This document shows, one piece after another, positions 26,138 to 55,503 of a DNA stretch of 64,000 nt. The DNA is from Alitta virens (taxonomy: Eukaryota > Annelida > Polychaeta > Phyllodocida > Nereididae), in NCBI GenBank assembly GCA_932294295.1, contig OW028576.1, positions 26,667,227 through 26,731,226 on the forward strand, in the 5' to 3' direction. The notes below the pieces were generated by a model that was given only the letters and a program-made list of their open reading frames with translations, searched no databases and was not told the DNA's origin. Position 1 is the first letter of the stretch; each line of letters starts with the position of its first letter. The translations under genes and the position numbers were made by a program.

Positions 26138-26410
26138 TTAAATGGGTTGTTCACTATTAAAAAGTAAATTTCCATCGTGTAGTAAAATTGTTGAGACTTT
26201 TCTTTTTTTAATGAAATTGGTCAGTTTTTCCCCAATACTTGAAGAATCCACATCTTGTTGATTTAACTGTACATGAATATTTCTAGCGCAAATAGGGCTC
26301 TCCTCTGACTGGCATTGTACCAGATCCATGTGCACCTCTTGTCTCTGCGAGCCACAAATGAAATAAATTCTGTGTACATGCCCTAACAAGGATTCATTGC
26401 AGACCATCAT
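26138..26410 (-). CDS. 100-aa-family ORF, leftmost copy with a different C-terminus
   Basis: 90 aa from a double ATG. It is the only copy whose last residues after GNLL (FNSEQPI) come from unique flanking sequence, so it probably preserves the pre-duplication C-terminus. No AATAAA lies close downstream. Function unknown; see the copy at 29807-30109 for a description of the family. Confidence 0.5.
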   Translation of the reverse strand: MMVCNESLLGHVHRIYFICGSQRQEVHMDLVQCQSEESPICARNIHVQLNQQDVDSSSIGEKLTNFIKKRKVSTILLHDGNLLFNSEQPI

Positions 26411-26515
26411 TGATATTTTTGTGTGTTAATTTCATAACACATTATTGAACCGCTGGGTCCCGGGGAAAGTAAGAAGTATTACTTCTGATGAAACTCTTTG
26501 GCCAAGGTTTCTCCT

Positions 26516-27714
26516 TTGTCGAACAAGAGTGCAATTAGTCTATTATGTACCGTTTATACATCACTGTTAAAATTATTGTAAATAAAGAATGTTTGTAAAA
26601 AATATATCTATTTGTTTGCTTTTTGTTGTTGTGAAGGGAAATTGGGTTCATACTAGGGACACATATTCACAAGACCAGTCCAAATAAATTAATCCAGGCA
26701 TAAGTCAGAGTTTTATTGTATGTGTGTTATTGTTTAACGCCTAATCAGAACCTCAGTGGGTTATGTAGAGGCTCGCTAGGTTAAGATTAATTATCTATAT
26801 TTGGTGGTAGAAACCAGAAGTATGTAAAAAAATTGTCTGCCTTGGATATCTTGTGAAGAGATGTTTTAAGGTAGTAGCTTCAAACAAAGTCTTTTAATGC
26901 ATTGTAATTGGATGCAATCTAATAAAAATAAGTTTGATTTTAAGGGGGTACCGACAACTCTGGCATACCGGTGCCAGTTCACTGACTAAATGGTGTAAAT
27001 GGTAAGTTTTGAATGTCCTATGAGGCATATGTGATATATTCCTTGACATAGTTTTATTAATAGAGACATTTTTTGAGTGACAGTGCTGAAAAATCACAAG
27101 CTATGAATGCTATAGTGGGCTTCTCGGTTGACACAAGTTTGCATAAAATATAGGTTTATAACAGAATGAAAAAACAGGTTCTTGTATATGATGTAATCTG
27201 AGTTGCTAACATATCAGCGTCATAATAGAAATAGATAATCACCCCTGGTAGGTGGCGCCCTTTTACATTTAATGCATATAAAAGACTGATAAACATAGCG
27301 AGCAACATATTGTCAGAGTGCCCGTGTGTGAGCTGACAATACAGGGACAAATATCGTTAGTATTTGACAGTACATTTACTGTAATACACCCTCTGTGTGC
27401 ATTCTGACACCATTGATGAACTGCATAGGAAAAGTGTGCTATTCAATTACCCTTACTTATGTGAGGAGATCAACTTTGTGCCATTGTTATTTGCAGTTTT
27501 TGAGAGGAAACTTGTCGATGAAAATACAGTAAGATTTCTGTTACAACCACAGAGGAAAGCAATTGACGATCTACTATATATGTTGATGCGTAGAGGACCT
27601 CATGCTTGGGAGGAGCTTCTGTCAAGTCTGTCAGCCATAGGCCAGCGACACATTTTTGAGCGATTGTCGGAAACTGCTCATATTATTGCAAAAAATGAAG
27701 ACATAAGCTTGGCG
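26516..27714 (+). repeat. Inverted partial unit at the left end of the array
   Basis: This 1.2-kb block is the reverse complement of the unit segment running from the CARD1 coding region to the 3' end of the 100-aa ORF. It is flanked by two direct copies of the same roughly 90-base sequence (from TTTCATAACACATTATTG to GGTTTCTCCTT, about 26425-26515 and 27715-27805). Confidence 0.85.
27412..27713 (+). pseudogene. Truncated, inverted CARD1 fragment
   Basis: Plus-strand copy of the first CARD only. The usual ATG in ACCATGG is ATT here, and homology stops abruptly after the CARD1 linker at the inversion junction. The upstream palindrome (27367-27382) has one mismatch. It cannot encode a normal product. 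Confidence 0.8.
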
Positions 27715-28238
27715 TATTTCATAACACATTATTGAACCGCTGGGTCCCGGGGAAAGTATGAAGTATTACTTCTGATGAAACTCTTTGGCCAAGGTTTCTC
27801 CTTCAGGAAAAGTGATTAAAGACTACACACAATGAAATGCAGTTTGGGCAGAATTTATTTCTAATAACACAAAAATAAATGCGCGCACAAAACATAAGCA
27901 AACAGTTCGATATACAAAGTGATACATATATAAAACTTAAGTAAAGTTTTAAGGATACATTATAAAGTTTAAGTCACTGCAGTTCACCAAGCAAAGTTGT
28001 TTCGATTAAGGTGCTGGAAGGATTGGAGGGGGTAAAAGTTGTCCTGACGTAAATAAATGTGTTGCTGCTGCTGCGAACGAAGCGATGCAAAGATGGGCAG
28101 GGGACGCCAATTAAGCAGATTAGCGGGTAGATTAGCTTGGAGCGCTGGAGTAGGTCTCTAAACATTAACAATCCAGAAATGATACGTTGACAACATCATC
28201 AACGCGAAGAATCCGACCTTATAACGTGTCTCTTATTC

Positions 28239-28934
28239 TCAATCCCATAACTCTTCTTCTTCCAGACGAAATCCCAATTCAGACACACGGACATCTGGAT
28301 TGTGTTTGTATATCTCCTCTGTCTCCCTTAATCGGCGTACCACTTCATTCTTATTGATTGCTTCCAAGCTTGACAAGAATCCTGACCATACATTTGGACC
28401 TGCGCGTTTCACGTGACACACAAGTTCAAAACATGTTTTCATGGATACATTTTCTGTTGATGAAATATCAATAATCCAATTTTCTTTAACCACACCTTTT
28501 CCGATTAAAGTATAACACAATTGTTTCAGGCATGGTGTAAGTTGTTCCATCAGGTATGTCATGTTCAGCCGCAAACATTCCTTGTGGAACTTTTCCAGGC
28601 AGTATGGCTTTTCCAAACATTCTTCAAAATCCGCTTTGCTTATGTCTTCATTTTTTGCAATAATATGAGCAGTTTCCCACAATCGCTCAAAAATGTGTCG
28701 CTGGCCTATGGCTGACAGACTTGACAGAAGCTCTTCCCAAGCATGAGGTCCTCTTTGCACCAAAATGTCTAGTAGATCGTGAGTTGCTTGCTCCTCTGGT
28801 TGTAACAGAAGTCTTACTGTATTTTCATCGACAAGTTTCCTCTCAAAAACTGCAAATAACAATGGCACTATGTTTATCTCCTCACATAAATAAGAGATAT
28901 TTATTCGCACACTTTTCCTATGCAGTTTATCCAT
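28239..28934 (-). CDS. Dual-CARD protein, unit 1 (diverged CARD1)
   Basis: 231 aa from an ATG in perfect Kozak context (ACCATGG); the longest frame adds five codons from a GTG. CARD1 covers about residues 1-95. It has an N-terminal helix, a leucine core (YLCEEINIVPLLFAVFERKL) and the signature RGPHAWEELLSSL with a GQ before the last helix. CARD2 covers about 110-215, with KQLCYTLIGKGVV, then RAGPNVWSGFLSSL. The tail is acidic. CARDs are six-helix death-fold domains that bind other CARDs in caspase, NLR, RIG-I/MAVS and Bcl10 signalling. With no effector domain, the product is most likely a decoy or adaptor. CARD1 differs from units 3-11 at about 16 positions, CARD2 at one. Transcription is probably driven from the TATA-like box and palindrome to its right. 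Confidence 0.88.
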   Translation of the reverse strand: MDKLHRKSVRINISYLCEEINIVPLLFAVFERKLVDENTVRLLLQPEEQATHDLLDILVQRGPHAWEELLSSLSAIGQRHIFERLWETAHIIAKNEDISKADFEECLEKPYCLEKFHKECLRLNMTYLMEQLTPCLKQLCYTLIGKGVVKENWIIDISSTENVSMKTCFELVCHVKRAGPNVWSGFLSSLEAINKNEVVRRLRETEEIYKHNPDVRVSELGFRLEEEELWD

Positions 28935-28961
28935 GGTGTCAGAATGCACAAAGGCGGTTTT

Positions 28962-28977
28962 ACAGTAAATTTACTGT
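28962..28977. promoter_or_regulatory. 16-bp perfect palindrome upstream of the CARD gene (type site)
   Basis: ACAGTAAATTTACTGT, fully self-complementary, lies 27 bases upstream of the CARD ATG. The same site recurs upstream of every CARD gene in the array (for example 38683-38698), is split by the retrotransposon in unit 10, and has one mismatch in the inverted fragment. A TATA-like CATATAAAAG (minus strand) lies roughly 100 bases further upstream. It is probably an operator or a transcription start element. Confidence 0.65.
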
Positions 28978-29806
28978 CAAATACCAACGATATTTGTCCC
29001 TGTATTGTCAGCTCACACACGGGCACTCTGACAATATGTTGCTCAATATGTTTATCAGTCTTTTATATGCATTAAATGCAAAAGGGCGCCACCTACCAGT
29101 GGTGATTATTTATTTCTATTATGACGCTGATATTTTAGCAACTCAGATTACATCATATACAAAAGAACTCTTGTGTGATACTATTTTCCAAGAGTATGAC
29201 AACCCAAAAGAACCAGGTTAAACCTATATTTTATGCAAACTTGTGTCAACCGAGAAGCCCACTATAGCATTCATAGCCTTTGATTTTTCAGCACTGTCAC
29301 TCACAAAATGTCTCTATTAATAAAACTATGTCAAGGAATATATCACATATGCCTCATAGGACATTCAAAACTTACCATTTACACCTTTTAGTCAGTGAAC
29401 TGGCACCGGTTTGCCAGAGTTGTCGGTGCCCCCTTAAAATCAAACATATTTTTATTAAATTGCATCCAATTACAATGCATTAAAAGACTTTGTTTGAAGC
29501 TACTACCTTTAAACATCTCCTCACAAGATATCCAAGGCAGACAATTTTTTTACATGCTTCTGGTTTCTACCACCAAATATAGATAATTAATCTTAACCTA
29601 GCGAGCCTCTACATAACCCACTGAGGTTCTGATTAGGCGCTAAACAATAACACACACACAATAAAACTCTGACTTATGCCTGGATTAATTTATTTGGACT
29701 GGTCTTGTGAATATGTGTCCTTAGTATGAACCCAATTTTCCTTCACAACAACAAAAAGCAAACAAATATATATATTTTTTACAAACATTCTTTATTTACA
29801 ATAATT

Positions 29807-30109
29807 TTAACAGTGATGTATAAATGTTACATAATAGACTAATTGCACTCTTGTTCGACAAAGTAAATTTCCATCATGTAGTAAAATTGTTGAGACTTTT
29901 CTTTTTTTAATGAAATTGGTCAGTTTTTCCCCAATACTTGAAGAATCCACATCTTGTTGATTTAACTGTACATGAATATTTCTAGCGTAAATAGGGCTCT
30001 CCTCTGACTGGCATTGTACCACATCCATGTGCACCTCTTGTCTCTGCGAGCCACAAATGAAATAAATTCGGTGTACATGCCCTAACAAGGATTCATTGCA
30101 GACCATCAT
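29807..30109 (-). CDS. 100-aa array ORF of unknown function (type copy)
   Basis: 100 aa starting MMVCNES, with ATGATG as start. It has several Cys and His, mixed beta-strand and helix character, a conserved basic segment FIKKRKVSTILLHDGN, and no signal peptide or membrane helix. The last 19 residues (from CRTRV) are encoded by sequence from the far end of the repeat unit, so this C-terminus was created by the tandem duplication. AATAAA follows just after the stop, on the sense strand. A 15-bp near-palindrome lies about 65 bases upstream of the start. Conservation across copies equals that of the surrounding DNA, so coding status is plausible but not proven. I do not recognise the family. Confidence 0.5.
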   Translation of the reverse strand: MMVCNESLLGHVHRIYFICGSQRQEVHMDVVQCQSEESPIYARNIHVQLNQQDVDSSSIGEKLTNFIKKRKVSTILLHDGNLLCRTRVQLVYYVTFIHHC

Positions 30110-30650
30110 TGATATTTTTGTGTGTTAATTTCATAACACATTATTGAACCGCTGGGTCCCGGGGAAAGTAAGAAGTATTACTTCTGATGAAACTCTTTGG
30201 CCAAGGTTTCTCCTTCAGGAAAAGTGATTAAAGACTACACACAATGAAATGCAGTTTGGGCAGAATTTATTTCTAATAACACAAAAATAAATGCGCGCAC
30301 AAAACATAAGCAAACAGTTCGATATACAAAGTGATACATATATAAAACTTAAGTAAAGTTTTAAGGATACATTATAAAGTTTAAGTCACTGCAGTTCACC
30401 AAGCAAAGTTGTTTCGATTAAGGTGCTGGAAGGATTGGAGGGGGTAAAAGTTGTCCTGACGTAAATAAATGTGTTGCTGCTGCTGCGAACGAAGCGATGC
30501 AAAGATGGGCAGGGGACGCCAATTAAGCAGATTAGCGGGTAGATTAGCTTGGAGCGCTGGAGTAGGTCTCTAAACATTAACAATCCAGAAATGATACGTT
30601 GACAACATCATCAACGCGAAGAATCCGACCTTATAACGTGTCTCTTATTC

Positions 30651-31346
30651 TCAATCCCATAACTCTTCTTCTTCCAGACGAAATCCCAATTCAGACACAC
30701 GGACATCTGGATTGTGTTTGTATATCTCCTCTGTCTCCCTTAATCGGCGTACCACTTCATTCTTATTGATTGCTTCCAAGCTTGACAAGAATCCTGACCA
30801 TACATTTGGACCTGCGCGTTTCACGTGACACACAAGTTCAAAACATGTTTTCATGGATACATTTTCTGTTGATGAAATATCAATAATCCAATTTTCTTTA
30901 ACCACACCTTTTCCGATTAAAGTATAACACAATTGTTTCAGGCATGGTGTAAGTTGTTCCATCAGGTATGTCATGTTCAGCCGCAAACATTCCTTGTGGA
31001 ACTTTTCCAGGCAGTATGGCTTTTCCAAACATTCTTCAAAATCCGCTTTGCTTATGTCTTCATTTTTTGCAATAATATGAGCAGTTTCCCACAATCGCTC
31101 AAAAATGTGTCGCTGGCCTATGGCTGACAGACTTGACAGAAGCTCTTCCCAAGCATGAGGTCCTCTTTGCACCAAAATGTCTAGTAGATCGTGAGTTGCT
31201 TGCTCCTCTGGTTGTAACAGAAGTCTTACTGTATTTTCATCGACAAGTTTCCTCTCAAAAACTGCAAATAACAATGGCACTATGTTTATCTCCTCACATA
31301 AATAAGAGATATTTATTCGCACACTTTTCCTATGCAGTTTATCCAT
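30651..31346 (-). CDS. Dual-CARD protein, unit 2
   Basis: The protein is identical to unit 1 (231 aa, diverged CARD1). The whole 2412-base unit is almost identical at nucleotide level, which implies a very recent duplication. Confidence 0.88.
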   Translation of the reverse strand: MDKLHRKSVRINISYLCEEINIVPLLFAVFERKLVDENTVRLLLQPEEQATHDLLDILVQRGPHAWEELLSSLSAIGQRHIFERLWETAHIIAKNEDISKADFEECLEKPYCLEKFHKECLRLNMTYLMEQLTPCLKQLCYTLIGKGVVKENWIIDISSTENVSMKTCFELVCHVKRAGPNVWSGFLSSLEAINKNEVVRRLRETEEIYKHNPDVRVSELGFRLEEEELWD

Positions 31347-32218
31347 GGTGTCAGAATGCACAAAGGCGGTTTTACAGTAAATTTACTGTCAAATACCAAC
31401 GATATTTGTCCCTGTATTGTCAGCTCACACACGGGCACTCTGACAATATGTTGCTCAATATGTTTATCAGTCTTTTATATGCATTAAATGCAAAAGGGCG
31501 CCACCTACCAGTGGTGATTATTTATTTCTATTATGACGCTGATATTTTAGCAACTCAGATTACATCATATACAAAAGAACTCTTGTGTGATACTATTTTC
31601 CAAGAGTATGACAACCCAAAAGAACCAGGTTAAACCTATATTTTATGCAAACTTGTGTCAACCGAGAAGCCCACTATAGCATTCATAGCCTTTGATTTTT
31701 CAGCACTGTCACTCACAAAATGTCTCTATTAATAAAACTATGTCAAGGAATATATCACATATGCCTCATAGGACATTCAAAACTTACCATTTACACCTTT
31801 TAGTCAGTGAACTGGCACCGGTTTGCCAGAGTTGTCGGTGCCCCCTTAAAATCAAACATATTTTTATTAAATTGCATCCAATTACAATGCATTAAAAGAC
31901 TTTGTTTGAAGCTACTACCTTTAAACATCTCCTCACAAGATATCCAAGGCAGACAATTTTTTTACATGCTTCTGGTTTCTACCACCAAATATAGATAATT
32001 AATCTTAACCTAGCGAGCCTCTACATAACCCACTGAGGTTCTGATTAGGCGCTAAACAATAACACACACACAATAAAACTCTGACTTATGCCTGGATTAA
32101 TTTATTTGGACTGGTCTTGTGAATATGTGTCCTTAGTATGAACCCAATTTTCCTTCACAACAACAAAAAGCAAACAAATATATATATTTTTTACAAACAT
32201 TCTTTATTTACAATAATT

Positions 32219-32521
32219 TTAACAGTGATGTATAAATGTTACATAATAGACTAATTGCACTCTTGTTCGACAAAGTAAATTTCCATCATGTAGTAAAATT
32301 GTTGAGACTTTTCTTTTTTTAATGAAATTGGTCAGTTTTTCCCCAATACTTGAAGAATCCACATCTTGTTGATTTAACTGTACATGAATATTTCTAGCGT
32401 AAATAGGGCTCTCCTCTGACTGGCATTGTACCACATCCATGTGCACCTCTTGTCTCTGCGAGCCACAAATGAAATAAATTCTGTGTACATGCCCTAACAA
32501 GGATTCATTGCAGACCATCAT
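32219..32521 (-). CDS. 100-aa array ORF, copy 3
   Basis: Protein identical to the copy at 29807-30109. Confidence 0.48.
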   Translation of the reverse strand: MMVCNESLLGHVHRIYFICGSQRQEVHMDVVQCQSEESPIYARNIHVQLNQQDVDSSSIGEKLTNFIKKRKVSTILLHDGNLLCRTRVQLVYYVTFIHHC

Positions 32522-33062
32522 TGATATTTTTGTGTGTTAATTTCATAACACATTATTGAACCGCTGGGTCCCGGGGAAAGTAAGAAGTATTACTTCTGAT
32601 GAAACTCTTTGGCCAAGGTTTCTCCTTCAGGAAAAGTGATTAAAGACTACACACAATGAAATGCAGTTTGGGCAGAAGTTATTTCTAATGACACAAAAAT
32701 AAATGCGCGCACAAAACATAAGCAAACAGTTCGATATACAAAGTGATACATATATAAAACTTAAGTAAAGTTTTAAGGCTACATTATAAAGTTTAAGTCA
32801 CTGCAGTTCAGCAAGCAAAGTTGTTTCGATTAAGGTGCTGGAGGGATTGGAGGGGGTAAAAGTTGTCCTGACGTAAATAAACGTGTTGCTGCTGCTGCGA
32901 ACAAAGCGATGCAGAGATGGGCAGGGGACGCCAATTAAGCAGATTAGCGGGTAGATTAGCTAGGAGCGCTGGAGTAGGTCTCTAAACATTAACAATCCAG
33001 AAATGATACGTTGACAACATCATAAACGCGAAGAATCCGACCTTATAACGTGTCTCTTATTC

Positions 33063-33759
33063 TCAATCCCATAACTCTTCTTCTTCCAGACGAAATCCCA
33101 ATTCAGACACACGGACATCTGGATTGTCTTTGTATATCTCCTCTGTCTCCCTTAATCGGCGTACCACTTCATTCTTATTGATTGCTTCCAAGCTTGACAA
33201 GAATCCTGACCATACATTTGGACCTGCGCGTTTCACGTGACACACAAGTTCAAAACATGTTTTCATGGATACATTTTCTGTTGATGAAATATCAATAATC
33301 CAATTTTCTTCAACCACACCTTTTCCGATTAAAGTATAACACAATTGTTTCAGGCATGGTGTAAGTTGTTCCATCAGGTATGTCATGTTCAGCCGCAAAC
33401 ATTCCTTGTGGAACTTTTCCAGGCAGTATGGCTTTTCCAAACATTTTTTTAAAATCCGCCAAGCTTATGTCTTCATTTTTTGCAATAATATGAGCAGTTT
33501 CCGACAATCGCTCAAAAATGTGTCGCTGGCCTATGGCTGACAGACTTGACAGAAGCTCCTCCCAAGCATGAGGTCCTCTACGCATCAACATATATAGTAG
33601 ATCGTCAGTTGCTTGCCTCTGTGGTTGTAACAGAAATCTTACTGTATTTTCATCGACAAGTTTCCTCTCAAAAACTGCAAATAACAATGGCACAGAGTTG
33701 ATCTCCTCACATAAGTAAGGGTAATTGAATAGCACACTTTTCCTATGCAGTTCATCCAT
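33063..33759 (-). pseudogene. Dual-CARD gene, unit 3, frameshifted after CARD1
   Basis: The A run in the linker after CARD1 is A7 on the sense strand (A6 in intact units), so translation from ATG 33759 leaves the CARD2 frame. It ends at 33310 with a roughly 40-residue unrelated tail, giving about 149 aa with CARD1 only. CARD2 remains open in the other frame (33440-33063) but lacks an early ATG. One private change in CARD2 (Val-Glu-Glu where others have Val-Lys-Glu). Confidence 0.82.
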
Positions 33760-34654
33760 GGTGTCAGAATGCACACAGAGGGTGTATTACAGTAAATTTA
33801 CTGTCAAATACTAACCATATTTGTCCCTGTATTGTCAGCTCACACACGGGCACTCTGACAATATGTTGCTCGCTATGTTTATCAGTCTTTTATATGCATT
33901 AAATGTAAAAGGGCGCCACCTACCAGTGGTGATTATTTATTTCTATTATGACGCTGATATATTAGCAACTCAGATTACATCATATACAAGAACCTGTTTT
34001 ATCCCACAAAAGAACACTTGTGTGATGCTTTTTTCCAAGAGTATAACAACCCAAAAGAACCAGTTTAAACCATTATTTCATTCTGGTATAAACCTATATT
34101 TTATGCAAACTTGTGTCAACCGAGAAGCCCACTATAGCATTCATAGCTTGTGATTTTTCAGCACTGTCACTCACAAAATGTCTCTATTAATAAAACTATG
34201 TCAAGGAATATATCACATATGCCTCATAGGACATTCAAAACTTACCATTTACACCATTTAGTCAGTGAACCGGCACCGGTATTACAATCAAACATATTTT
34301 TATTAGATTGCATCCAATTACAATGCATTAAAAGACTTTGTTTGAAGTTACTACCTTAAAACATCTCTTCACAAGATATCCAAGGCAGACAATTTTTTTA
34401 CATGCTTCTGATTTCTACCACCAAATATAGATAATTAATCTTAACCTAGCGAGCCTCTACATAACCCACTGAGGTTCTGATTAGGCGTTAAACAATAACA
34501 CACACACAATAAAACTCTGACTTATGCCTGGATTAATTTATTTGGACTGGTCTTGTGAATATGTGTCCTTAGTATGAACCCAATTTCCCTTCACAACAAC
34601 AAAAAGCAAACAAATAGATATATTTTTTACCAACATTCTTTATTTACAATAATT

Positions 34655-34957
34655 TTAACAGTGATGTATAAATGGGACATAATAGACTAATTGCACTCTT
34701 GTTCGACAAAGTAAATTTCCATCGTGTAGTAGAATTGTTGAGACTTTTCTTTTTTTAATGAAATTGGTCAGTTTTTCTCCAATACTTGAAGAATCCACAT
34801 CTTGTTGATTTAACTGTACATGAATATTTCTAGCGCAAATAGGGCTCTCCTCTGACTGGCATTGTACCACATCCATGTGCACCTCTTGTCTCTGCGAGCC
34901 ACAAATGAAATAAATTCTGTGTACATGCCCTAACAAGGATTCATTGCAGACCATCAT
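34655..34957 (-). CDS. 100-aa array ORF, copy 4
   Basis: 100 aa. Cys-Ala-Arg and YYVPFIHHC variants distinguish it from copies 2-3. Confidence 0.48.
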   Translation of the reverse strand: MMVCNESLLGHVHRIYFICGSQRQEVHMDVVQCQSEESPICARNIHVQLNQQDVDSSSIGEKLTNFIKKRKVSTILLHDGNLLCRTRVQLVYYVPFIHHC

Positions 34958-35498
34958 TGATATTTTTGTGTGTTAATTTCATAACACATTATTGAACCGC
35001 TGGGTCCCGGGGAAAGTAAGAAGTATTACTTCTGATGAAACTCTTTGGCCAAGGTTTCTCCTTCAGGAAAAGTGATTAAAGACTACACACAATGAAATGC
35101 AGTTTGGGCAGAAGTTATTTCTAATAACACAAAAATAAATGCGCGCACAAAACATAAGCAAACAGTTCGATATACAAAGTGATACATATATAAAACTTAA
35201 GTAAAGTTTTAAGGCTACATTATAAAGTTTAAGTCACTGCAGTTCACCAAGCAAAGTTGTTTCGATTAAGGTGCTGGAGGGATTGGAGGGGGTAAAAGTT
35301 GTCCTGACGTAAATAAACGTGTTGCTGCTGCTGCGAACGAAGCGATGCAGAGATGGGCAGGGGACGCCAATTAAGCAGATTAGCAGGTAGATTAGCTAGG
35401 AGCGCTGGAGTAGGTCTCTAAACATTAACAATCCAGAAATGATACGTTGACAACATCATAAACGCGAAGAATCCGACCTTATAACGTGTCTCTTATTC

Positions 35499-36195
35499 TC
35501 AATCCCATAACTCTTCTTCTTCCAGACGAAATCCCAATTCAGACACACTGACATCTGGATTGTCTTTGTATATCTCCTCTGTCTCCCTTAATCGGCGTAC
35601 CACTTCATTCTTATTGATTGCTTCCAAGCTTGACAAGAATCCTGACCATACATTTGGACCTGCGCGTTTCACGTGACACACAAGTTCAAAACATGTTTTC
35701 ATGGATACATTTTCTGTTGATGAAATATCAATAATCCAATTTTCTTTAACCACACCTTTTCCGATTAAAGTATAACACAATTGTTTCAGGCATGGTGTAA
35801 GTTGTTCCATCAGGTATGTCATGTTCAGCCGCAAACATTCCTTGTGGAACTTTTCCAGGCAGTATGGCTTTTCCAAACATTTTTTTAAAATCCACCAAGC
35901 TTATGTCTTCATTTTTTGCAATAATATGAGCAGTTTCCGACAATCGCTCAAAAATGTGTCGCTGGCCTATGGCTGACAGACTTGACAGAAGCTCCTCCCA
36001 AGCATGAGGTCCTCTACGCATCAACATATATAGTAGATCGTCAGTTGCTTGCCTCTGTGGTTGTAACAGAAATCTTACTGTATTTTCATCGACAAGTTTC
36101 CTCTCAAAAACTGCAAATAACAATGGCACAAAGTTGATCTCCTCACATAAGTAAGGGTAATTGAATAGCACACTTTTCCTATGCAGTTCATCCAT
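35499..36195 (-). pseudogene. Dual-CARD gene, unit 4, frameshifted after CARD1
   Basis: Same A7 frameshift as unit 3. The CARD1-only product ends at 35746. There is an Ala-to-Val change just before the run, shared with units 5, 7 and 9. The poly(A) hexamer downstream of the CARD gene is altered (AATAAC), as in units 3 and 9. Confidence 0.82.
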
Positions 36196-37112
36196 GGTGT
36201 CAGAATGCACACAGAGGGTGTTTTACAGTAAATTTACTGTCAAATACTAACCATATTTGTCCCTGTATTGTCAGCTCACACACGGGCACTCTGACAATAT
36301 GTTGCTCGCTATGTTTATCAGTCTTTTATATGCATTAAATGTAAAAGGGCGCCACCTACCAGTGGTGATTATTTATTTCTATTATGACGCTGATATGTTA
36401 GCAACTCAGATTACATCATATACAAGAACCTGTTTTTTCCCACAAAAGAACACTTGTGTGATGCTTTTTTCCAAGAGTATAACAACCCAAAAGAACCAGT
36501 TTAAACCATTATTTCATTCTGGTATAAACCTATATTTTATGCAAACTTGTGTCAACCGAGAAGCCCACTATAGCATTCATAGCTTGTGATTTTTCATCAC
36601 TGTCACTCACAAAATGTCTCTATTAATAAAACTATGTCAAGGAATATATCACATATGCCTCATAGGACATTCAAAACTTACCATTTACACCATTTAGTCA
36701 GTGAACTGGCACCGGTATGCCAGAGTTGTCGGTGCCCCTTTACAATCAAACATATTTTTATTAGATTGCATCCAATTACAATGCATTAAAAGACTTTGTT
36801 TGAAGCTACTACCTTAAAACATCTCTTCACAAGATATCCAAGGCAGACAATTTTTTTACATGCTTCTGATTTCTACCACCAAATATAGATAATTAATCTT
36901 CACCTAGCGAACCTCTACATAACCCACTGAGGTTCTGATTAGGCGTTAAACAATAACACACACACAATAAAACTCTGACTTATGCCTGGATTAATTTATT
37001 TGGACTGGTCTTGTGAATATGTGTCCTTAGTATGAACCCAATTTCCCTTCACAACAACAAAAAGCAAACAAATAGATATATTTTTTACAAACATTCTTTA
37101 TTTACAATAATT

Positions 37113-46025: not shown

Positions 46026-46942
46026 GGTGTCAGAATGCACACAGAGGGTGTATTACAGTAAATTTACTGTCAAATACTAACAATATTTATCCCTGTATTG
46101 TCAGCTCACACACGGGCACTCTGACAATATGTTGCTCGCTATGTTTATCAGTCTTTAATATGCATTAAATGTAAAAGGGCGCCACCTACCAGTGGTGATT
46201 ATTTATTTCCATTATGACGCTGATATGTTAGCAACTCAGATAACATCATATACAAGAACCTGTTTTTTCCCACAAAAGAACACTTGTGTGATGCTTTTTT
46301 CCAAGAGTATAACAACCCAAAAGAACCAGTTTAAACCATTATTTCATTCTGGTATAAACCTATATTTTATGCAAACTTGTGTCAACCGAGAAGCCCACTA
46401 TAGCATTCATAGCTCGTGATTTTTCAGCACTGTCACTCACAAAATGTCTCTATTAATAAAACTATGTCAAGGAATATATCACATATGCCTCATAGGACAT
46501 TCAAAACTTACCATTTACACCATTTAGTCAGTGAACTGGCACCGGTATGCCAGAGTTGTCGGTGCCCCCTTACAATCAAACATATTTTTATTAGATTGCA
46601 TCCAATTACAATGCATTAAAAGACTTTGTTTGAAGCTACTACCTTAAAACATCTCTTCACAAGATATCCAAGGCAGACCATTTTTTTACATGCTTCTGAT
46701 TTCTACCACCAAATATAGATAATTAATCTTAACCTAGCGAGCCTCTACATAACCCACTGAGGTTCTGATTAGGCGTTAAACAATAACACACACACAATAA
46801 AACTCTGACTTATGCCTGGATTAATTTATTTGGACTGGTCTTGTGAATATGTGTCCTTAGTATGAACCCAATTTCCCTTCACAACAACAAAAAGCAAACA
46901 AATAGATATATTTTTTACAAACATTCTTTATTTACAATAATT

Positions 46943-47245
46943 TTAACAGTGATGTATAAATGGTACATAATAGACTAATTGCACTCTTGTTCGACAAAGT
47001 AAATTTCCATCGTGTAGTAAAATTGTTGAGACTTTTCTTTTTTTAATGAAATTGGTCAGTTTTTCCCCAATACTTGAAGAATCCACATCTTGTTGATTTA
47101 ACTGTACATGAATATTTCTAGCGCAAATAGGGCTCTCCTCTGACTGGCATTGTACCACATCCATGTGCACCTCTTGTCTCTGCGAGCAACAAATGAAATA
47201 AATTCTGTGTACATGCCCTAACAAGGATTCATTGCAGACCATCAT
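46943..47245 (-). CDS. 100-aa array ORF, copy 9
   Basis: 100 aa with Gly-to-Cys in the ICGSQ segment (ICCSQ). Confidence 0.47.
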   Translation of the reverse strand: MMVCNESLLGHVHRIYFICCSQRQEVHMDVVQCQSEESPICARNIHVQLNQQDVDSSSIGEKLTNFIKKRKVSTILLHDGNLLCRTRVQLVYYVPFIHHC

Positions 47246-47786
47246 TGATATTTTTGTGTGTTAATTTCATAACACATTATTGAACCGCTGGGTCCCGGGG
47301 AAAGTAAGAAGTATTACTTCTGATGAAACTCTTTGGCCAAGGTTTCTCCTTCAGGAAAAGTGATTAAAGACTACACACAATGAAATGCAGTTTGGGCAGA
47401 AGTTATTTCTAATAACACAAAAATAAATGCGCGCACAAAACATAAGCAAACAGTTCGATATACAAAGTGATACATATATAAAACTTAAGTAAAGTTTTAA
47501 GGCTACATTATAAAGTTTAAGTCACTGCAGTTCACCAAGCAAAGTTGTTTCATTTAAGGTGCTGGAGGGATTGGAGGGGGTAAAAGTTGTCCTGACGTAA
47601 ATAAACGTGTTGCTGCTGCTGCGAACGAAGCGATGCCGAGATGGGCAGGGGACGCCAATTAAGCAGATTAGCGGGTAGATTAGCTAGGAGTGCTGGAGTA
47701 GGTCTCTAAACATTAACAATCCAGAAATGATACGTTGACAACATCATAAACGCGAAGAATCCGACCTTATAACGTGTCTCTTATTC

Positions 47787-48483
47787 TCAATCCCATAACT
47801 CTTCTTCTTCCAGACGAAATCCCAATTCAGACACACGGACATCTGGATTGTCTTTGTATATCTCCTCTGTCTCCCTTAATCGGCGTACCACTTCATTCTT
47901 ATTGATTGCTTCCAAGCTTGACAAGAATCCTGACCATACATTTGGACCTGCGCGTTTCACGTGACACACAAGTTCAAAACATGTTTTCATGGATACATTT
48001 TCTGTTGATGAAATATCAATAATCCAATTTTCTTTAACCACACCTTTTCCGATTAAAGTATAACACAATTGTTTCAGGCATGGTGTAAGTTGTTCCATCA
48101 GGTATGTCATGTTCAGCCGCAAACATTCCTTGTGGAACTTTTCCAGGCAGTATGGCTTTTCCAAACATTTTTTTAAAATCCACCAAGCTTATGTCTTCAT
48201 TTTTTGCAATAATATGAGCAGTTTCCGACAATCGCTCAAAAATGTGTCGCTGGCCTATGGCTGACAGACTTGACAGAAGCTCCTCCCAAGCATGAGGTCC
48301 TCTACGCATCAACATATATAGTAGATCGTCAGTTGCTTGCCTCTGTGGTTGTAACAGAAATCTTACTGTATTTTCATCGACAAGTTTCCTCTCAAAAACT
48401 GCAAATAACAATGGCACAAAGTTGATCTCCTCACATAAGTAAGGGTAATTGAATAGCACACTTTTCCTATGCAGTTCATCCAT
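47787..48483 (-). pseudogene. Dual-CARD gene, unit 9, frameshifted after CARD1
   Basis: A7 frameshift, CARD1 frame ending at 48034. Intact TATA-like box and palindrome; downstream AATAAA altered as in units 3 and 4. Confidence 0.82.
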
Positions 48484-49400
48484 GGTGTCAGAATGCACAC
48501 AGAGGGTGTATTACAGTAAATTTACTGTCAAATACTAACCATATTTGTCCCTGTATTGTCAGCTCACACACGGGCACTCTGACAATATGTTGCTCGCTAT
48601 GTTTATCAGTCTTTTATATGCATTAAATGTAAAAGGGCGCCACCTACCAGTGGTGATTATTTATTTCCATTATGACGCTGATATGTTAGCATCTCAGATT
48701 ACATCATATACAAGAACCTGTTTTTTCCCACAAAAGAACACTTGTGTGATGCTTTTTTCCAAGAGTATAACATTCCAAAAGTACCAGTTTAAACCATTAT
48801 TTCATTCTGGTATAAACCTATATTTTATGCAAACTTGTATCAACCGAGAAGCCCACTATAGCATTCATAGCTTGTGATTTTTCAGCACTGTCACTCACAA
48901 AATGTCTCTATTAATAAAACTATGTCAAGGAATATATCACATATGCCTCATAGGACATTCAAAACTTACCATTTACACCATTTAGTCAGTGAACTGGCAC
49001 CGGTATGCCAGAGTTGTCGGTGCCCCCTTACAATCAAATATATTTTTATTAGATTGCATCCAATTACAATGCATTAAAAGACTTTGTTTGAAGCTACTAC
49101 CTTAAAACATCTCTTCACAAGATATCCAAGGCAGACAATTTTTTTACATGCTTCTGATTTCTACCACCAAATATAGATAATTAATCTTAACCTAGCGAGC
49201 CTCTACATAACCCACTGAGGTTCTGATTAGGCGTTAAACAATAACACACACACAATAAAACTCTGACTTATGCCTGGATTAATTTATTTGGACTGGTCTT
49301 GTGAATATGTGTCCTTAGTATGAACCCAATTTCCCTTCACAACAACAAAAAGCAAACAAATAGATATATTTTTTACAAACATTCTTTATTTACAATAATT

Positions 49401-49703
49401 TTAACAGTGATGTATAAATGGTACATAATAGACTAATTGCACTCTTGTTCGACAAAGTAAATTTCCATCGTGTAGTAAAATTGTTGAGACTTTTCTTTTT
49501 TTAATGAAATTGGTCAGTTTTTCCCCAATACTTGAAGAATCCACATCTTGTTGATTTAGCTGTACATGAATATTTCTAGCGCAAATAGGGCTCTCCTCTG
49601 ACTGGCATTGTACCACATCCATGTGCACCTCTTGTCTCTGCGAGCCACAAATGAAATAAATTCTGTGTACATGCCCTAACAAGGATTCATTGCAGACCAT
49701 CAT
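49401..49703 (-). CDS. 100-aa array ORF, copy 10
   Basis: Same protein as the copy at 39571. Confidence 0.48.
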   Translation of the reverse strand: MMVCNESLLGHVHRIYFICGSQRQEVHMDVVQCQSEESPICARNIHVQLNQQDVDSSSIGEKLTNFIKKRKVSTILLHDGNLLCRTRVQLVYYVPFIHHC

Positions 49704-50244
49704 TGATATTTTTGTGTGTTAATTTCATAACACATTATTGAACCGCTGGGTCCCGGGGAAAGTAAGAAGTGTTACTTCTGATGAAACTCTTTGGCCAAGG
49801 TTTCTCCTTCAGGAAAAGTGATTAAAGACTACACACAATGAAATGCAGTTTGGGTAGAATTTATTTCTAATAACACAAAAATAAATGCGCGCACAAACCA
49901 TAAGCAAACAGTTCGATATACAAAGTGATACATATATAAAACTTAAGTAAAGTTTTAAGGCCACATTATAAAGTTTAAGTCACTGCAGTTCACCAAGCAA
50001 AGTTGTTTCGATTAAGGTGCTGGAGGGATTGGAGGGGGTAAAAGTTGTCCTGACGTAAATAAACGTGTTGCTGCTGCTGCGAACGAAGCGATGCAGAGAT
50101 GGGCAGGGGACGCCAATTAAGCAGATTAGTGGGTAGATTAGCTAGGAGCGCTGGAGTAGGTCTCTAAACATTAACAATCCAGAAATGATATGTTGACAAC
50201 ATCATAAACGCGAAGAATCCAACCTTATAACGTGTCTCTTATTC

Positions 50245-50940
50245 TCAATCCCATAACTCTTCTTCTTCCAGACGAAATCCCAATTGGGACACACAGACAT
50301 CTGGATTGTCTTTGTATATCTCCTCTGTCTCCCATAATCGGCGTACCACTTCATTCTTATTGATTGCTTCCAAGCTTGACAAGAATCCTGACCATACATT
50401 TGGACCTGCGCGTTTCACGTGACACACAAGTTCAAAACATGTTTTCATGGATACATTTTCTGTTGATGAAATATCAATAATCCAATTTTCTTTAACCACA
50501 CCTTTTCCGATTAAAGTATAACACAATTGTTTCAGGCATGGTGTAAGTTGTTCCATCAGGTATGTCATGTTCAGCCGCAAACATTCCTTGTGGAACTTTT
50601 CCAGGCAGTATGGCTTTTCCAAACATTTTTTAAAATCCGCCAAGCTTATGTCTTCATTTTTTGCAATAATATGAGCAGTTTCCGACAATCGCTCAAAAAT
50701 GTGTTGCTGGCCTATGGCTGACAGACTTGACAGAAGCTCCTCCCAAGCATGAGGTCCTCTACGCATCAACATATATAGTAGATCGTCAGTTGCTTGCCTC
50801 TGTGGTTGTAACAAAAATCTTACTGTATTTTCATCGACAAGTTTCCTCTCAAAAACTGCAAATAACAATGGCACAAAGTTGATCTCCTCACATAAGTAAG
50901 GGTAATTGAATAGCACACTTTTCCTATGCAGTTCATCCAT
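50245..50940 (-). CDS. Dual-CARD protein, unit 10, promoter separated by a LINE
   Basis: 231 aa, intact. The retrotransposon insertion begins 33 bases upstream of the ATG and pushes the palindrome half and TATA-like box about 1 kb away, so this copy has probably lost its normal promoter. Confidence 0.86.
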   Translation of the reverse strand: MDELHRKSVLFNYPYLCEEINFVPLLFAVFERKLVDENTVRFLLQPQRQATDDLLYMLMRRGPHAWEELLSSLSAIGQQHIFERLSETAHIIAKNEDISLADFKKCLEKPYCLEKFHKECLRLNMTYLMEQLTPCLKQLCYTLIGKGVVKENWIIDISSTENVSMKTCFELVCHVKRAGPNVWSGFLSSLEAINKNEVVRRLWETEEIYKDNPDVCVSQLGFRLEEEELWD

Positions 50941-50972
50941 GGTGTCAGAATGCACACAGAGGGTGTATTACA

Positions 50973-51962
50973 TATATATAGATTTTATTGACATGTAAAA
51001 TATCATAAATGATACATATGTCATTCAGTTAAAAGATAACATGAAAGAGACATTAATGTAAGTACAGAAAGCAATAAAATTTCAATAATCAAGGTTCCAG
51101 CCACCAAGTTAACTTATAATACGTGTTTAAAATCCACATACACAATAGAAAAAAAATACAAGCCGCTAATAAAAACATTTCACTCTCAAAGTCCAAAACA
51201 TGACAAGCACATCATAACTAATAAACTAATAAACTAAATTAATAACTGTGTGGATACAGGAGATGGTTTTCTCTACACATCAGCTTGAAGGAGAAACTTT
51301 CCTAAACTAATTAATAACTCAGGTTCCTTGTTTGTCATTATTGCTGTAAACTTAGTTATATCATCTAGAGACAAGAAGTTGTTAATAAATTTAGTTGCAT
51401 TCAAAAAAAGGTTAACACGGTGTTGCTCATTACCAGGACAGACAATCAAACAGTGAATTTCGTCTTCTACAAAGTTTAACGTACACTTTTCACATATTCT
51501 ATTTGGAGCAGGAATTATTGGTTTATGGTGTCGACCTGTTTCAATCTTCAGGCTATGTGAACTTGTCCTAAATCTAGCTATTTTAGTTAACACTTTGCGA
51601 ATTTGTTGCAATTCAAGATAAGGTTCTATTCTACAATCAGTTTTAAATAGTTTATATGTCCTAAGTTTTGGTTGTTGTGAACTGTCATTTATTGCATTTA
51701 TAAGTCGCTCATGTTCGGCTTCATAGAGTCTTAGTTTCACTGTGTTAGAGATATTATCAATGTCAAAGTTTCTGAGGTTACTAATATCATATTCAATGTT
51801 GCAGTTATTTAATACATGACACACTTTACTGAACCAGTTATTTCCATTTACTGCATTCACATAAATTTCCTTCTGAAAATTTAAACATTTCTTAAGTAAA
51901 CTGTCATCAGGTGCTCTTTCCAATCTTATCCAGTAATTCACCATTCTAATTTTCTGTCTGAC
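50973..51962 (-). mobile_element. 5'-truncated non-LTR retrotransposon (LINE)
   Basis: A 990-bp insertion flanked by a 6-bp target-site duplication ATTACA (50967-50972 and 51963-51968), absent from the ten other units. Minus-strand orientation: coding region right, 3' end left with AATAAAATC and a TA-rich tail. It lies inside the 16-bp palindrome of unit 10. As no other unit carries it, it arrived after the array expanded. Confidence 0.88.
51273..51944 (-). CDS. C-terminal fragment of LINE ORF2 (reverse transcriptase polyprotein)
   Basis: 223 codons matching the end of non-LTR retrotransposon ORF2 proteins. It has the RFRTSSHSLKIETGR-type segment followed by a Cys-x2-Cys...His-x4-Cys zinc-knuckle-like motif (CEKC, then HCLIVCPG). 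The reverse transcriptase and endonuclease domains are missing because of 5' truncation, so it is non-autonomous. Such elements are common in marine invertebrate genomes. Confidence 0.75.
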   Translation of the reverse strand: MVNYWIRLERAPDDSLLKKCLNFQKEIYVNAVNGNNWFSKVCHVLNNCNIEYDISNLRNFDIDNISNTVKLRLYEAEHERLINAINDSSQQPKLRTYKLFKTDCRIEPYLELQQIRKVLTKIARFRTSSHSLKIETGRHHKPIIPAPNRICEKCTLNFVEDEIHCLIVCPGNEQHRVNLFLNATKFINNFLSLDDITKFTAIMTNKEPELLISLGKFLLQADV

Positions 51963-52853
51963 ATTACAGTAAATTTACTGTCAAATACTAACAATATTTA
52001 TCCCTGTATTGTCAGCTCACACACGGGCACTCTGACAATATGTTGCTCGCTATGTTTATCAGTCTTTTATATGCATTAAATGTAAAAGGGCGCCACCTAC
52101 CAGTGGTGATTATTTATTTCTATTATGACGCTGATATGTTAGCAACTCAGATTACATCATATACAAGAACCTGTTTTTTCCCACAAAAGAACACTTGTGT
52201 GATGCTTTTTTCCAAGAGTATAACAACCCAAAAGAACCAGTTTAAACCATTATTTCATTCTGGTATAAACCTATATTTTATGCAAACTTGTGTCAACCGA
52301 GAAGCCCACTATAGCATTCATAGCTTGTGATTTTTCAGCACTGTCACTCACAAAATGTCTCTATTAATAAAACTATGTCAAGGAATATATCACATATGCC
52401 TCATAGGACATTCAAAACTTACCATTTACACCATTTAGTCAGTGAACTGGCACCGGTATGCCAGAGTTGTCGGTGCCCCCTTACAATCAAACATATTTTT
52501 ATTAGATTGCATCCAATTACAATGCATTAAAAGACTTTGTTTGAAGCTACTACCTTAAAACATCTCTTCACAAGATATCCAAGGCAGACAATTTTTTTAC
52601 ATGCTTCTGATTTCTACCACCAAATATAGATAATTAATCTTAACCTAGCGAGCCTCTACATAACCCACTGAGGTTCTGATTAGGCGTTAAACAATAACAC
52701 ACACACAATAAAACTCTGACTTATGCCTGGATTAATTTATTTGGACTGGTCTTGTGAATATGTGTCCTTAGTATGAACCCAATTTCCCTTCACAACAACA
52801 AAAAGCAAACAAAGAGATATCTTTTTTACAAACATTCTTTATTTACAATAATT

Positions 52854-53156
52854 TTAACAGTGATGTATAAATGGTACATAATAGACTAATTGCACTCTTG
52901 TTCGACAAAGTAAATTTCCATCGTGTAGTAAAATTGTTGAGACTTTTCTTTTTTTAATGAAATTGGTCAGTTTTTCCCCAATACTTGAAGAATCCACATC
53001 TTGTTGATTTAGCTGTACATGAATATTTCTGGCGCAAATAGGGCTCTCCTCTGACTGGCATTGTACCACATCCATGTGCACCTCTTGTCTCTGCGAGCCA
53101 CAAATGAAATAAATTCTGTGTACATGCCCTAACAAGGATTAATTGCAGACCATCAT
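52854..53156 (-). pseudogene. 100-aa array ORF, copy 11, early nonsense mutation
   Basis: Codon 6, GAA in every other copy, is TAA here (T instead of C at the corresponding plus-strand base in GGATTAATTGC). The rest of the frame is intact. Confidence 0.8.
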
Positions 53157-53697
53157 TGATATTTTTGTGTGTTAATTTCATAACACATTATTGAACCGCT
53201 GGGTCCCGGGGAAAGTAAGAAGTATTACTTCTGATGAAACTCTTTGGCCAAGGTTTCTCCTTCAGGAAAAGTGATTAAAGACTACACACAATGAAATGCA
53301 GTTTGGGTAGAATTTATTTCTAATAACACAAAAATAAATGCGCGCACAAAACATAAGCAAACAGTTCGATATACAAAGTGATACATATATAAAACTTAAG
53401 TAAAGTTTTAAGGCTACATTATAAAGTTTAAGTCACTGCAGTTCACCCAGCAAAGTTGTTTCGATTAAGGTGCTGGAGGGATTGGAGGGGGTAAAAGTTG
53501 TCCTGACGTAAATAAACGTGTTGCTGCTGCTGCGAACGAAGCGATGCAGAGATGGGCAGGGGACGCCAATTAAGCAGATTAGTGGGTAGATTAGCTAGGA
53601 GCGCTGGAGTAGGTCTCTAAACATTAACAATCCAGAAATGATATGTTGACAACATCATAAACGCGAAGAATCCAACCTTATAACGTGTCTCTTATTC

Positions 53698-54393
53698 TCA
53701 ATCCCATAACTCTTCTTCTTCCAGACGAAATCCCAATTGGGACACACGGACATCTGGATTGTCTTTGTATATCTCCTCTGTCTCCCTTAATCGGCGTACC
53801 ACTTCATTCTTATTGATTGCTTCCAAGCTTGACAAGAATCCTGACCATACATTTGGACCTGCGCGTTTCACGTGACACACAAGTTCAAAACATGTTTTCA
53901 TGGATACATTTTCTGTTGATGAAATATCAATAATCCAATTTTCTTTAACCACACCTTTTCCGATTAAAGTATAACACAATTGTTTCAGGCATGGTGTAAG
54001 TTGTTCCATCAGGTATGTCATGTTCAGCCGCAAACATTCCTTGTGGAACTTTTCCAGGCAGTATGGCTTTTCCAAACATTTTTTAAAATCCGCCAAGCTT
54101 ATGTCTTCATTTTTTGCAATAATATGAGCAGTTTCCGACAATCGCTCAAAAATGTGTCGCTGGCCTTTGGCTGACAGACTTGACAGAAGCTCCTCCCAAG
54201 CATGAGGTCCTCTATGCATCAACATATATAGTAGATCGTCAGTTGCTTGCCTCTGTGGTTGTAACAAAAATCTTACTGTATTTTCATCGACAAGTTTCCT
54301 CTCAAAAACTGCAAATAACAATGGCACAAAGTTGATCTCCTCACATAAGTAAGGGTAATTGAATAGCACACTTTTCCTATGCAGTTCATCCAT
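53698..54393 (-). CDS. Dual-CARD protein, unit 11
   Basis: 231 aa, intact. Private changes: Arg-to-His before GPHAW and Ile-to-Lys before GQ. Palindrome and TATA-like box are intact, so with units 1 and 2 it is one of three copies with both a complete frame and a complete promoter region. Confidence 0.87.
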   Translation of the reverse strand: MDELHRKSVLFNYPYLCEEINFVPLLFAVFERKLVDENTVRFLLQPQRQATDDLLYMLMHRGPHAWEELLSSLSAKGQRHIFERLSETAHIIAKNEDISLADFKKCLEKPYCLEKFHKECLRLNMTYLMEQLTPCLKQLCYTLIGKGVVKENWIIDISSTENVSMKTCFELVCHVKRAGPNVWSGFLSSLEAINKNEVVRRLRETEEIYKDNPDVRVSQLGFRLEEEELWD

Positions 54394-55316
54394 GGTGTCA
54401 GAATGCACACAGAGGGTGTATTACAGTAAATTTACTGTCAAATACTAACAATATTTATCCCTGTATTGTCAGCTCACACACGGGCACTCTGACAATATGT
54501 TGCTCGCTATGTTTATCAGTCTTTTATATGCATTAAATTTAAAAGGGCTCCACCTACCAGTGGTGATTATTTATTTCTATTATGACGCTGATATGTTAGA
54601 TTACATCATATACAAGAACCTGTTTTTTCCCACAAAAGAACACTTGTGTGATGCTTTTTTCCAAGAGTATAACAACCCAAAAGAACCAGTTTAAACCATT
54701 ATTTCATTCTGGTATAAACCTATATTTTATGCAAACTTGTGTCAACCGAGAAGCCCACTATAGCATTCATAGCTTGTGATTTTTCAGCACTGTCACTCAC
54801 AAAATGTCTCTATTAATAAAACTATGTCAAGGAATATATCACATATGCCTCATAGGACATTCAAAACTTACCATTTACACCATTTAGTCAGTGAACTGGC
54901 ACCGGTATGCCAGAGTTGTCGGTGCCCCCTTACAATCAAACATATTTTTATTAGATTGCATCCAATTACAATGCATTAAAAGACTTTGTTTGAAGCTTCT
55001 ACCTTAAAACATCTCCTTACAAGATATCCCAGGCAGACAATTTTTTTACATGCTTCTGGTTTCTACCACCAAATAAAGATAATTAATCTTAACCTAGTGA
55101 GCCTCTACATAGCCCACTGAGGTTCTGATGAGGCGTTAAACAATAACACACACACACACACACAATAAAAACTTTTGTGGAAATAATTTTCACTCACATA
55201 TATGCCTTGATTAATTTATTTGGACTGGTCTTGTGAATATTTGTCCTTAGTATGAACCCAATTTCCCTTCACAACAACAAAAAGCAAACAAATAGATATA
55301 TTTTTTACAAACATTC

Positions 55317-55322
55317 TTTATT
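55317..55322 (-). terminator. Poly(A) signal at the array edge
   Basis: TTTATT on the plus strand is AATAAA on the minus strand. Here it lies downstream of the nucleotidyltransferase gene; in every internal unit the homologous hexamer follows the 100-aa ORF instead. Confidence 0.6.
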
Positions 55323-55385
55323 TACAATAATTTTTAAAGTGATATATAAATGGTACATAATAGACTTATTGCACTATTGTTCAAC

Positions 55386-55503
55386 ATCCACTGATATGTC
55401 CATTTTCTTTAATTTATCTAGACATGCGTTCAACCAACTTTTTGGTTGGCCAAAATGTCAAACTTGCATTTTCTAACAACATAATGTATCCAGTTGGCGT
55501 CAG
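55386..55503 (-). repeat. Partial, internally deleted duplicate of the nucleotidyltransferase 3' end
   Basis: Contains a diverged copy of 55503-55574 joined directly to a copy of about 55660-55705, leaving out the roughly 85 bases between. It lies exactly between the array edge and the real gene end. Confidence 0.75.

Follow-up and report, generated by a model that had tools for sequence, protein, structure and literature searches.

A tandem array of twin-CARD genes inside a virus-like element of the annelid Alitta virens

The array and its units

The stretch of DNA analysed here (the window) comprises 64,000 nucleotides of the genome of Alitta virens (contig C4, 26667227-26731226), and coordinates given without further indication are positions in this 64-kb window. 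The analysis covered one assembly. The window carries a virus-like element and, between two genes of this element, a tandem array of genes encoding two consecutive CARD domains. Self-BLAST and a comparison of the edges place the array at positions 26161-55386 (no strand assigned), which confirms the eleven direct units that the initial annotation had located between 26160 and 55386. The unit phase is identical at the left edge (26161) and at the right edge (55386). Because both edges share one phase, the array is composed of 11 whole units of about 2.4 kb (2412-2480 bp), with the exception of unit 1, which contains an inverted patch, and of unit 10, which contains an insert of about 990 bp. 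The identity among the direct units ranges from 95.6 to 99.9%, well past chance. The array was not detected by Tandem Repeats Finder, a program with a period limit of 500.

The twin-CARD open reading frame (ORF) lies on the minus strand, as do the units. It is intronless and encodes 231 aa from its own ATG. The two CARDs that had been attributed to every unit are present in 6 of the 11, where the ORF is intact: unit 1 (26161-29859, ORF 28239-28934) and unit 2 (29860-32271, ORF 30651-31346), both of a first sequence type, unit 6 (39624-42080, ORF 40415-41110), unit 8 (44539-46995, ORF 45330-46025), unit 10 (49454-52906, ORF 50245-50940) and unit 11 (52907-55386, ORF 53698-54393), the latter of a last type. 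In the other five, a run of seven T replaces a run of six (T7 in place of T6) and puts the frame out after CARD1. These are unit 3 (32272-34707, ORF 33310-33759), unit 4 (34708-37165, ORF 35746-36195), unit 5 (37166-39623, ORF 38204-38653), unit 7 (42081-44538, ORF 43119-43568) and unit 9 (46996-49453, ORF 48034-48483). If expressed, the frameshifted copies would yield CARD1 followed by a tail of about 44 aa.

A TATA box (TGCATATAAAA, 29061-29071 on the minus strand in unit 1, about 133 nt upstream of the CARD start) is present in 9 of the 11 units. It is lost in units 6 and 8, and in unit 10 the insert splits it from the ORF, so that promoter and twin-CARD ORF are both whole and adjacent only in units 1, 2 and 11. 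A polyadenylation-type signal occurs within 520 nt 3' of the CARD stop in eight units, the exceptions being units 3, 4 and 9. The insert of unit 10 (50974-51962, minus strand) is flanked by a 6-bp target-site duplication (ATTACA). From its appearance we take it to be a 5'-truncated non-LTR (long terminal repeat) retrotransposon; its ORF (51273-51944) has no Pfam match. The inverted patch of unit 1 (26517-27719, plus strand) is a partial unit of about 1.2 kb that includes a piece of the CARD ORF from its 5' side, shows a 4-bp overlap at each junction and is common to one of the other copies of the element (copy B, see below). A sharing of the TATA motif with the gene to the right of the array was considered and dropped as evidence, the match being the single one outside the array.

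Across the 11 units, the T6/T7 site is the sole one-base length difference among 69 homopolymer runs of at least 6. This T7 form is not a read error, since other variants are linked to it and copy B has it as well. The same homopolymer comparison weakens sequencing error as the origin of the gene breaks in general, although single errors may be present. The T7 form is also that of a public protein (P0001), which equals the window copies except for the start residue and was not counted as independent. Concerning the remainder of the unit, a 100-aa ORF found in units 2-10 (e.g. 29807-30109) corresponds to a repeated 5' fragment of the gene to the left of the array and is open in 9 of the 10 repeats outside the left edge. 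A segment of about 325 bp, which in unit 1 lies at 29346-29660 and has its equivalents in other units, shares about 86% identity with sequence located about 20 kb to the left of the window in each of the three copies of the element (L013:937-1261).

CARD identity and predicted fold of the protein

Two whole 231-aa proteins were compared with Pfam. Each matches the CARD family (PF00619) over two stretches, at 40.5 and 38.1 bits for a gathering cut-off of 23.9. In the whole proteins tested, nothing besides CARD is above the Pfam cut-off, neither an effector domain nor a DExD/H helicase, and the CARD-only composition proposed from the first inspection is upheld. With single-domain pieces, 3 of 5 matched CARD at E values up to 1, and the frameshifted 154-aa form has no Pfam CARD match. 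Searches of the PDB sequences with the CARD protein, with near-identical copies or with CARD2 alone gave no CARD match; only a profile of CARD1 and CARD2 retrieved solved CARDs. The 12 matches listed for this profile include the CARDs of RAIDD, caspase-9 and Dronc and none from a RIG-I-like receptor (RLR). The full-length AlphaFold2 (AF2) model was of poor quality and was discarded. CARD2 alone gave a fair predicted model with a death-fold helical bundle, and its nearest solved CARDs by fold are those of Apaf-1 and caspase-9, which are ahead by about 1-2 Z only.

Three copies on one chromosome

The contig that contains the window measures 50.5 Mb, in a genome of 671 Mb assembled in 23 contigs, and the virus-like element is therefore endogenous. 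A genome search with the twin-CARD protein (best 150 of 160 candidates) found, among the matches listed, at least 24 places scoring at least 216 bits, all on contig C4 and distributed over three sites. The whole proviral copies score 454-539 bits. Five weak relatives were listed elsewhere (among them C4:8.02, C6:20.46 and C12:0.97 Mb), with 28.5-40.3 bits and 28-48% identity over parts. The three sites are designated A (the window, 11 units), B (24.87 Mb, 3 units) and C (26.26 Mb, 2 units), and all of them have the same element genes left and right of the CARD units. Between A and B, four pieces are 99.2-99.8% identical and a fifth, cut by a scaffold gap, 96.1%; between A and C, 9 of 9 pieces are 97.6-99.3% identical. 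The DNA polymerase gene at the left end of the window matches these three sites only, in addition to a 24-residue scrap on contig C3. Thus the virus-like genes that had been noticed on both sides of the array recur as the same neighbours at each site.

A and C share an apparent host flank, and neither outer end of the element was located. The shared flank points to a duplication of the integrated provirus rather than to separate integrations, and we infer that the three sites arose by duplication of one provirus. On the right of copy A, ORFs with leucine-rich repeats (LRR) are found at two distances, about 7 kb beyond the window, where the sequence is 98% alike at C, and about 20 kb from A. 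In copy B, both LRR and LRR+TIR ORFs occur about 55-63 kb to the left of the position equivalent to the window start. These ORFs near A and B are long and unbroken (L034:1176-2954, L017:570-1412, L031:3113-5503 and 7031-9001). The provirus seems to be located in or beside a host cluster of Toll-like-receptor type, which may have duplicated along with it.

Other features were observed around the copies. Copy B is cut by a 200-N scaffold gap (L010:5977-6176) directly after its last base matching the window (58644). LTR-retrotransposon ORFs (protease, reverse transcriptase, RNase H, integrase) occur about 17-29 kb left of its window-start equivalent (L029, L043); the tiles of A and C that were compared contain no matching sequence. 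Copy C has an inverted repeat with arms of at least about 3.8 kb that meet near L037:2865 (L036-L038, about 5-14 kb past the window-end equivalent), one arm of which is matched by A. A satellite-like array of repeats of about 1.74 kb, more than 99% identical, lies about 43-54 kb left of the window-start equivalent of C (L048, L049).

Origin of the repeated unit

The gene on the left of the array (24753-26410, minus strand; superfamily-3-helicase-like motifs by eye only) is open in copy C as one frame of 600 codons (24534-26322 in window terms), which continues into the stretch repeated by the units. In copy A the same frame is broken and its 5' part appears as a separate 90-aa ORF. The units repeat this 5' part (26161-26410) in the form of a small ORF. 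Since the left-hand frame of C runs into the repeated stretch, the unit starts inside a gene of the element. The phase shared by both edges is what a tandem duplication in place predicts.

Age of the CARD types and of the expansion

In the tree of the units, A1, A2, B1 and C1 group together as the first type (support 0.97) and A11, B3 and C2 as the last type (support 0.80). The tree shows that the two diverged CARD types are older than the split between A and C. The units A3, A4, A5, A7, A9 and B2 all carry the T7 frameshift yet form no single clade (node supports 0.13-0.99). Outside the CARD ORF, the first and last types differ by 3.6% (A2-A11), 3.8% (B1-B3), 2.8% (A2-C2) and 2.2% (C1-C2). 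For comparison, A11 and C2 differ by 1.6% outside the CARD ORF and the flanks of A and C by 1.27% (187 of 14,782 positions).

The breaks of genes in the A-C flanks were then used as a record of decay. Eleven breaks in A fall within frames open in C and seven in C within frames open in A, none of the 18 being shared; the junction near 19700 is not comparable, the changed side is undecided for some breaks, and an earlier count gave 16. A divergence of the two types during the decay of the element would predict 1.0-15.6 shared breaks. With an array clock of 1 to 3.3 times the flank clock (measured ratio 2.5 for A-B and 1.3 for A-C) and with either break count, the probability of observing no shared break is comprised between 2e-7 and 0.023 with the A2-A11 or B1-B3 distances and between 0.0003 and 0.11 with A2-C2. 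A duplication of the CARD types while the genes of the element were under selection, i.e. in the live virus, is consequently favoured on these counts, although not proven. For the time since the split, pN/pS amounts to 0.76 (0.53-1.10) for A-C and 0.82 (0.27-2.52) for A-B, and the genes of the element appear to decay without clear purifying selection.

The units A3 to A10 differ by 0.3-1.5% among themselves, less than A11 and C2 (1.97%), and for this reason look younger than the A-C split. By these distances, the expansion towards 11 units looks younger than the duplication of the types, dating from a time when the genes were decaying, and much of it would represent copying inside the host.

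Variation of the two CARDs

Five mutually dependent pairs were compared (A2 and C1 with C2 or A11, and B1 with B3). Nonsynonymous sites of CARD1 differ by 9-11%, versus 2-4% for the noncoding DNA of the unit (p from 5e-4 to 3e-8), whereas CARD2 is never significantly above noncoding DNA and is below it in A2-A11 (p 0.004). CARD1 thus appears hypervariable and CARD2 steadier. The synonymous sites of CARD1 are also raised (6-12%, 4-8 changes; N versus S, p 0.47-1), so that both diversifying selection and the import of a diverged patch are compatible with the pattern. Over 83 codons of the 5' fragment that the units repeat from the left-hand gene, seven pairs show 0-2 nonsynonymous and 1-4 synonymous changed codons; with these small counts the changes are mostly synonymous, and not every reading frame of the unit varies like CARD1. 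The changes in CARD1 are enriched, in a post hoc test with helix limits drawn by hand from the CARD2 model, on the predicted helices 1 and 4 (10 of 18, p 0.004; 9 of 20, p 0.04). Helices 1 and 4 constitute the type Ib face in CARD pairs.

Flanking genes and nature of the element

The only element ORF outside the array that was recognised by Pfam is a family-B DNA polymerase gene (1-3658, minus strand), which has polymerase B and exonuclease domains and a frame broken by frameshifts and a stop; the other ORFs scanned on both sides of the array have no match above the cut-off. The polymerase also matches a phage-polymerase profile (9.9e-23). Its closest relatives are two anonymous proteins (58% and 46%), followed by cellular polymerases at no more than 54 bits. 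Since polymerase B is not virus-specific, the value of these domains as a hallmark is limited.

Other genes were characterised by eye. Two long ORFs (6490-8541, plus strand, and 8938-11868) have ends resembling signal peptides and membrane anchors and may be envelope proteins; the first, envelope-glycoprotein-like, has a signal peptide, a basic cleavage site and a C-terminal membrane helix, and neither matches Pfam. An ORF of 610 aa (12830-14662, minus strand), located where the G+C content is higher, is a candidate structural protein, without Pfam match or relative in IMG/VR. The region 21184-24328 (minus strand) holds one or two primase-like genes with two in-frame stops and two frameshifts; in copies B and C this region reads open for long distances. 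The right-hand gene of the array (55500-56285, minus strand) is nucleotidyltransferase-like, with no Pfam domain above the cut-off and no PDB match, and a degenerate partial copy of its 3' end, seen by eye and by BLAST, lies between it and the array (55385-55505). The helicase-, primase- and nucleotidyltransferase-like genes obtained no identification above chance from Pfam or PHROGs, and PDB searches with two helicase-like ORFs and with the nucleotidyltransferase-like ORF produced no credible match. Six genes of the element, the CARD gene included, have no relative in IMG/VR, and the prokaryote scan gave none. On the basis of the polymerase and of the dense, mostly uncharacterised ORFs, we infer that the element is a large double-stranded DNA (dsDNA) virus of an uncharacterised family, and the polymerase would mark a lineage without named member among the databases searched.

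A proposed scenario: a duplicated viral CARD decoy and a drifting provirus

The reading that we prefer, with a probability of about 0.6, is that of a large dsDNA virus whose twin-CARD decoy gene was duplicated in the virus, followed by proviral decay and neutral drift of the copy number. An uncharacterised virus would have carried an intronless gene for a twin-CARD-only protein, placed between two genes of the virus itself. While the virus was live, a segment made of the 5' part of the left-hand gene and of the CARD gene together with the TATA box of the latter would have been duplicated in tandem at least once, and the virus phase likely held at least two units, the first CARDs of which would then have diverged strongly. 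The protein would most likely act as a soluble decoy, consisting of CARDs only, and cap the CARD-CARD assemblies of the host by competing for host CARD surfaces, the two linked CARDs raising avidity or bridging two partners. The virus would have integrated on one chromosome of the animal, the provirus would have been copied to three sites there, and the number of units (11, 3 and 2) would drift by unequal exchange.

Several observations weigh against this reading. Four of the breaks sit beside homopolymer runs of 6-7. No capsid, terminase or other structural hallmark was recognised in the ORFs of the element scanned. With the C1-C2 distance, the probability of finding no shared break rises to between 0.022 and 0.36. 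The tree is weak and places C2 with A11 and B3 beside A6, A8 and A10, which leaves the age of the expansion unsettled, and several of the units A3-A10 may predate the A-B split.

We suggest tentatively, as a possibility that goes further, that the element belongs to an uncharacterised family of large DNA viruses of animals with a small and diversifying set of antagonists built from twin CARDs. CARD2 would be the steadier part and CARD1 the host-facing one that changes fast, mostly on predicted helices 1 and 4, the copies would address different host CARDs, and the fossil near the LRR/TIR genes would preserve an arms race.

An amplification in the live virus under host pressure, giving more CARD decoy and preserved on integration, is unlikely. 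At least two types did exist before the A-C split, the vaccinia K3L arrays show the principle (PMC6115191), and the divergence of A3-A10 is close to that of orthologous A and B units (0.65-0.9%), which, together with the placement of C2, would allow several units to be old. However, the sibling copies have 3 and 2 units only, units 3-10 coalesce after the A-C split by distance, five units are frameshifted, and among the six whole ones the TATA box is missing from two and displaced in another. As the expansion is younger by distance, an 11-fold dose effect in the virus, as envisaged by the initial annotation, is not supported.

On the target alone, that annotation had named RIG-I/MAVS, NLR or caspase signalling. 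A mimic of the twin CARDs of RIG-I/MDA5 acting on MAVS-type signalling is doubtful and not favoured, because the profile matches listed comprise RAIDD, caspase-9 and Dronc but no RLR CARD, and Apaf-1/caspase-9 rank higher by fold. A target of the caspase/adaptor type (apoptosome, RAIDD-caspase) is the more probable one by profile and by predicted fold, with small margins.

It is improbable that the host co-opted the proviral array, close to LRR/TIR genes, and expanded it as an antiviral or immune-regulatory CARD cluster. LRR and LRR+TIR ORFs are indeed nearby and, outside the frameshifted lineage, the CARD ORFs are open, in six of the 11 units of A, in two of the three of B, in C2 and, except for its last two residues, in C1; as the divergence is short, they may simply be unbroken so far. 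On the other hand, no purifying selection on the CARDs is seen since the A-B split (13 nonsynonymous and 2 synonymous changes over A1-B1 and A11-B3), the frameshift affects five of the 11 copies at A and one of the three at B, and some promoters are lost. Slightly less probable still is a giant self-replicating transposon with the CARD gene as cargo, for which the missing structural hallmarks would speak. The polymerase is found at three related places only, unlike that of an active transposon, two ORFs are glycoprotein-like by eye, and no transposase or integrase was found in the element's own ORFs scanned.

We discount almost entirely a host CARD cluster that surrounds or was invaded by virus-like DNA, or a misjoined contig (as far as one assembly shows, very unlikely): five weak relatives do exist elsewhere, but the best reaches 40 bits as opposed to 454-539 for whole proviral copies, and the arrangement recurs at two further places of C4 with element DNA on both sides, the edges are in phase and the unit starts inside an element gene.

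Comparison with known systems

Two CARDs in a row are also found in RIG-I, MDA5 and NOD2, where they precede a helicase or a NACHT-LRR sensor. The present protein ends after CARD2, without the helicase that follows the twin CARD in the RIG-I-like receptors. Among the matches listed from the open-licence PMC literature, viral CARDs are represented by single-CARD iridovirus proteins and by one bivalve iridovirus gene combining CARD and RHIM, and none is a viral twin-CARD gene or a CARD array. The viral fold matches listed include annotated CARD proteins of lymphocystis disease viruses and Cod iridovirus, all weak. A protein of Clandestinovirus labelled MAVS-like in the database is also viral and named after a CARD adaptor, but it has 105 aa, the length of one domain, and is a weak fold match (E 3.7).

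The ranavirus/iridovirus protein GIV-CARD (91 aa) is described as an inhibitor of apoptosis that lowers the activity of caspase-8 and caspase-9 (PMC4457926). Like GIV-CARD, the protein of A. virens would be a viral CARD-only protein without effector domain; unlike it, and unlike the ranavirus-type single CARD of about 90-100 aa, it has 231 aa, two tandem CARDs and several gene copies. The polymerase of the element, moreover, is not close to that of a named virus, and no relative is found in IMG/VR. BiIV1_006R of bivalve iridovirus 1 likewise represents a CARD gene of a large DNA virus, with an invertebrate as host, and resembles host sequences (PMC12452177). It differs by its combination of CARD and RHIM, and the main text available for that report contains neither 'duplicat' nor 'tandem' (PMC12452177). 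If a different large DNA virus also duplicated and diversified a twin-CARD gene, CARD signalling would be a recurrent viral target in an animal lineage.

The endogenous nimaviruses of crustaceans are, similarly, large dsDNA viruses in animal genomes, the available part of their description mentioning no CARD array (PMC10871703). In the vaccinia K3L arrays, a large DNA virus likewise carries tandem copies of a gene linked to host immune defence, and variants are homogenised across these copies; there the copy number was tracked under selection during infection, whereas here it is read from a decaying provirus (PMC6115191). In principle, the three proviral copies of A. virens allow the virus phase of a gene amplification to be separated from its host phase, and the comparison advises caution before gene arrays in endogenous viruses are taken as adaptive dosage.

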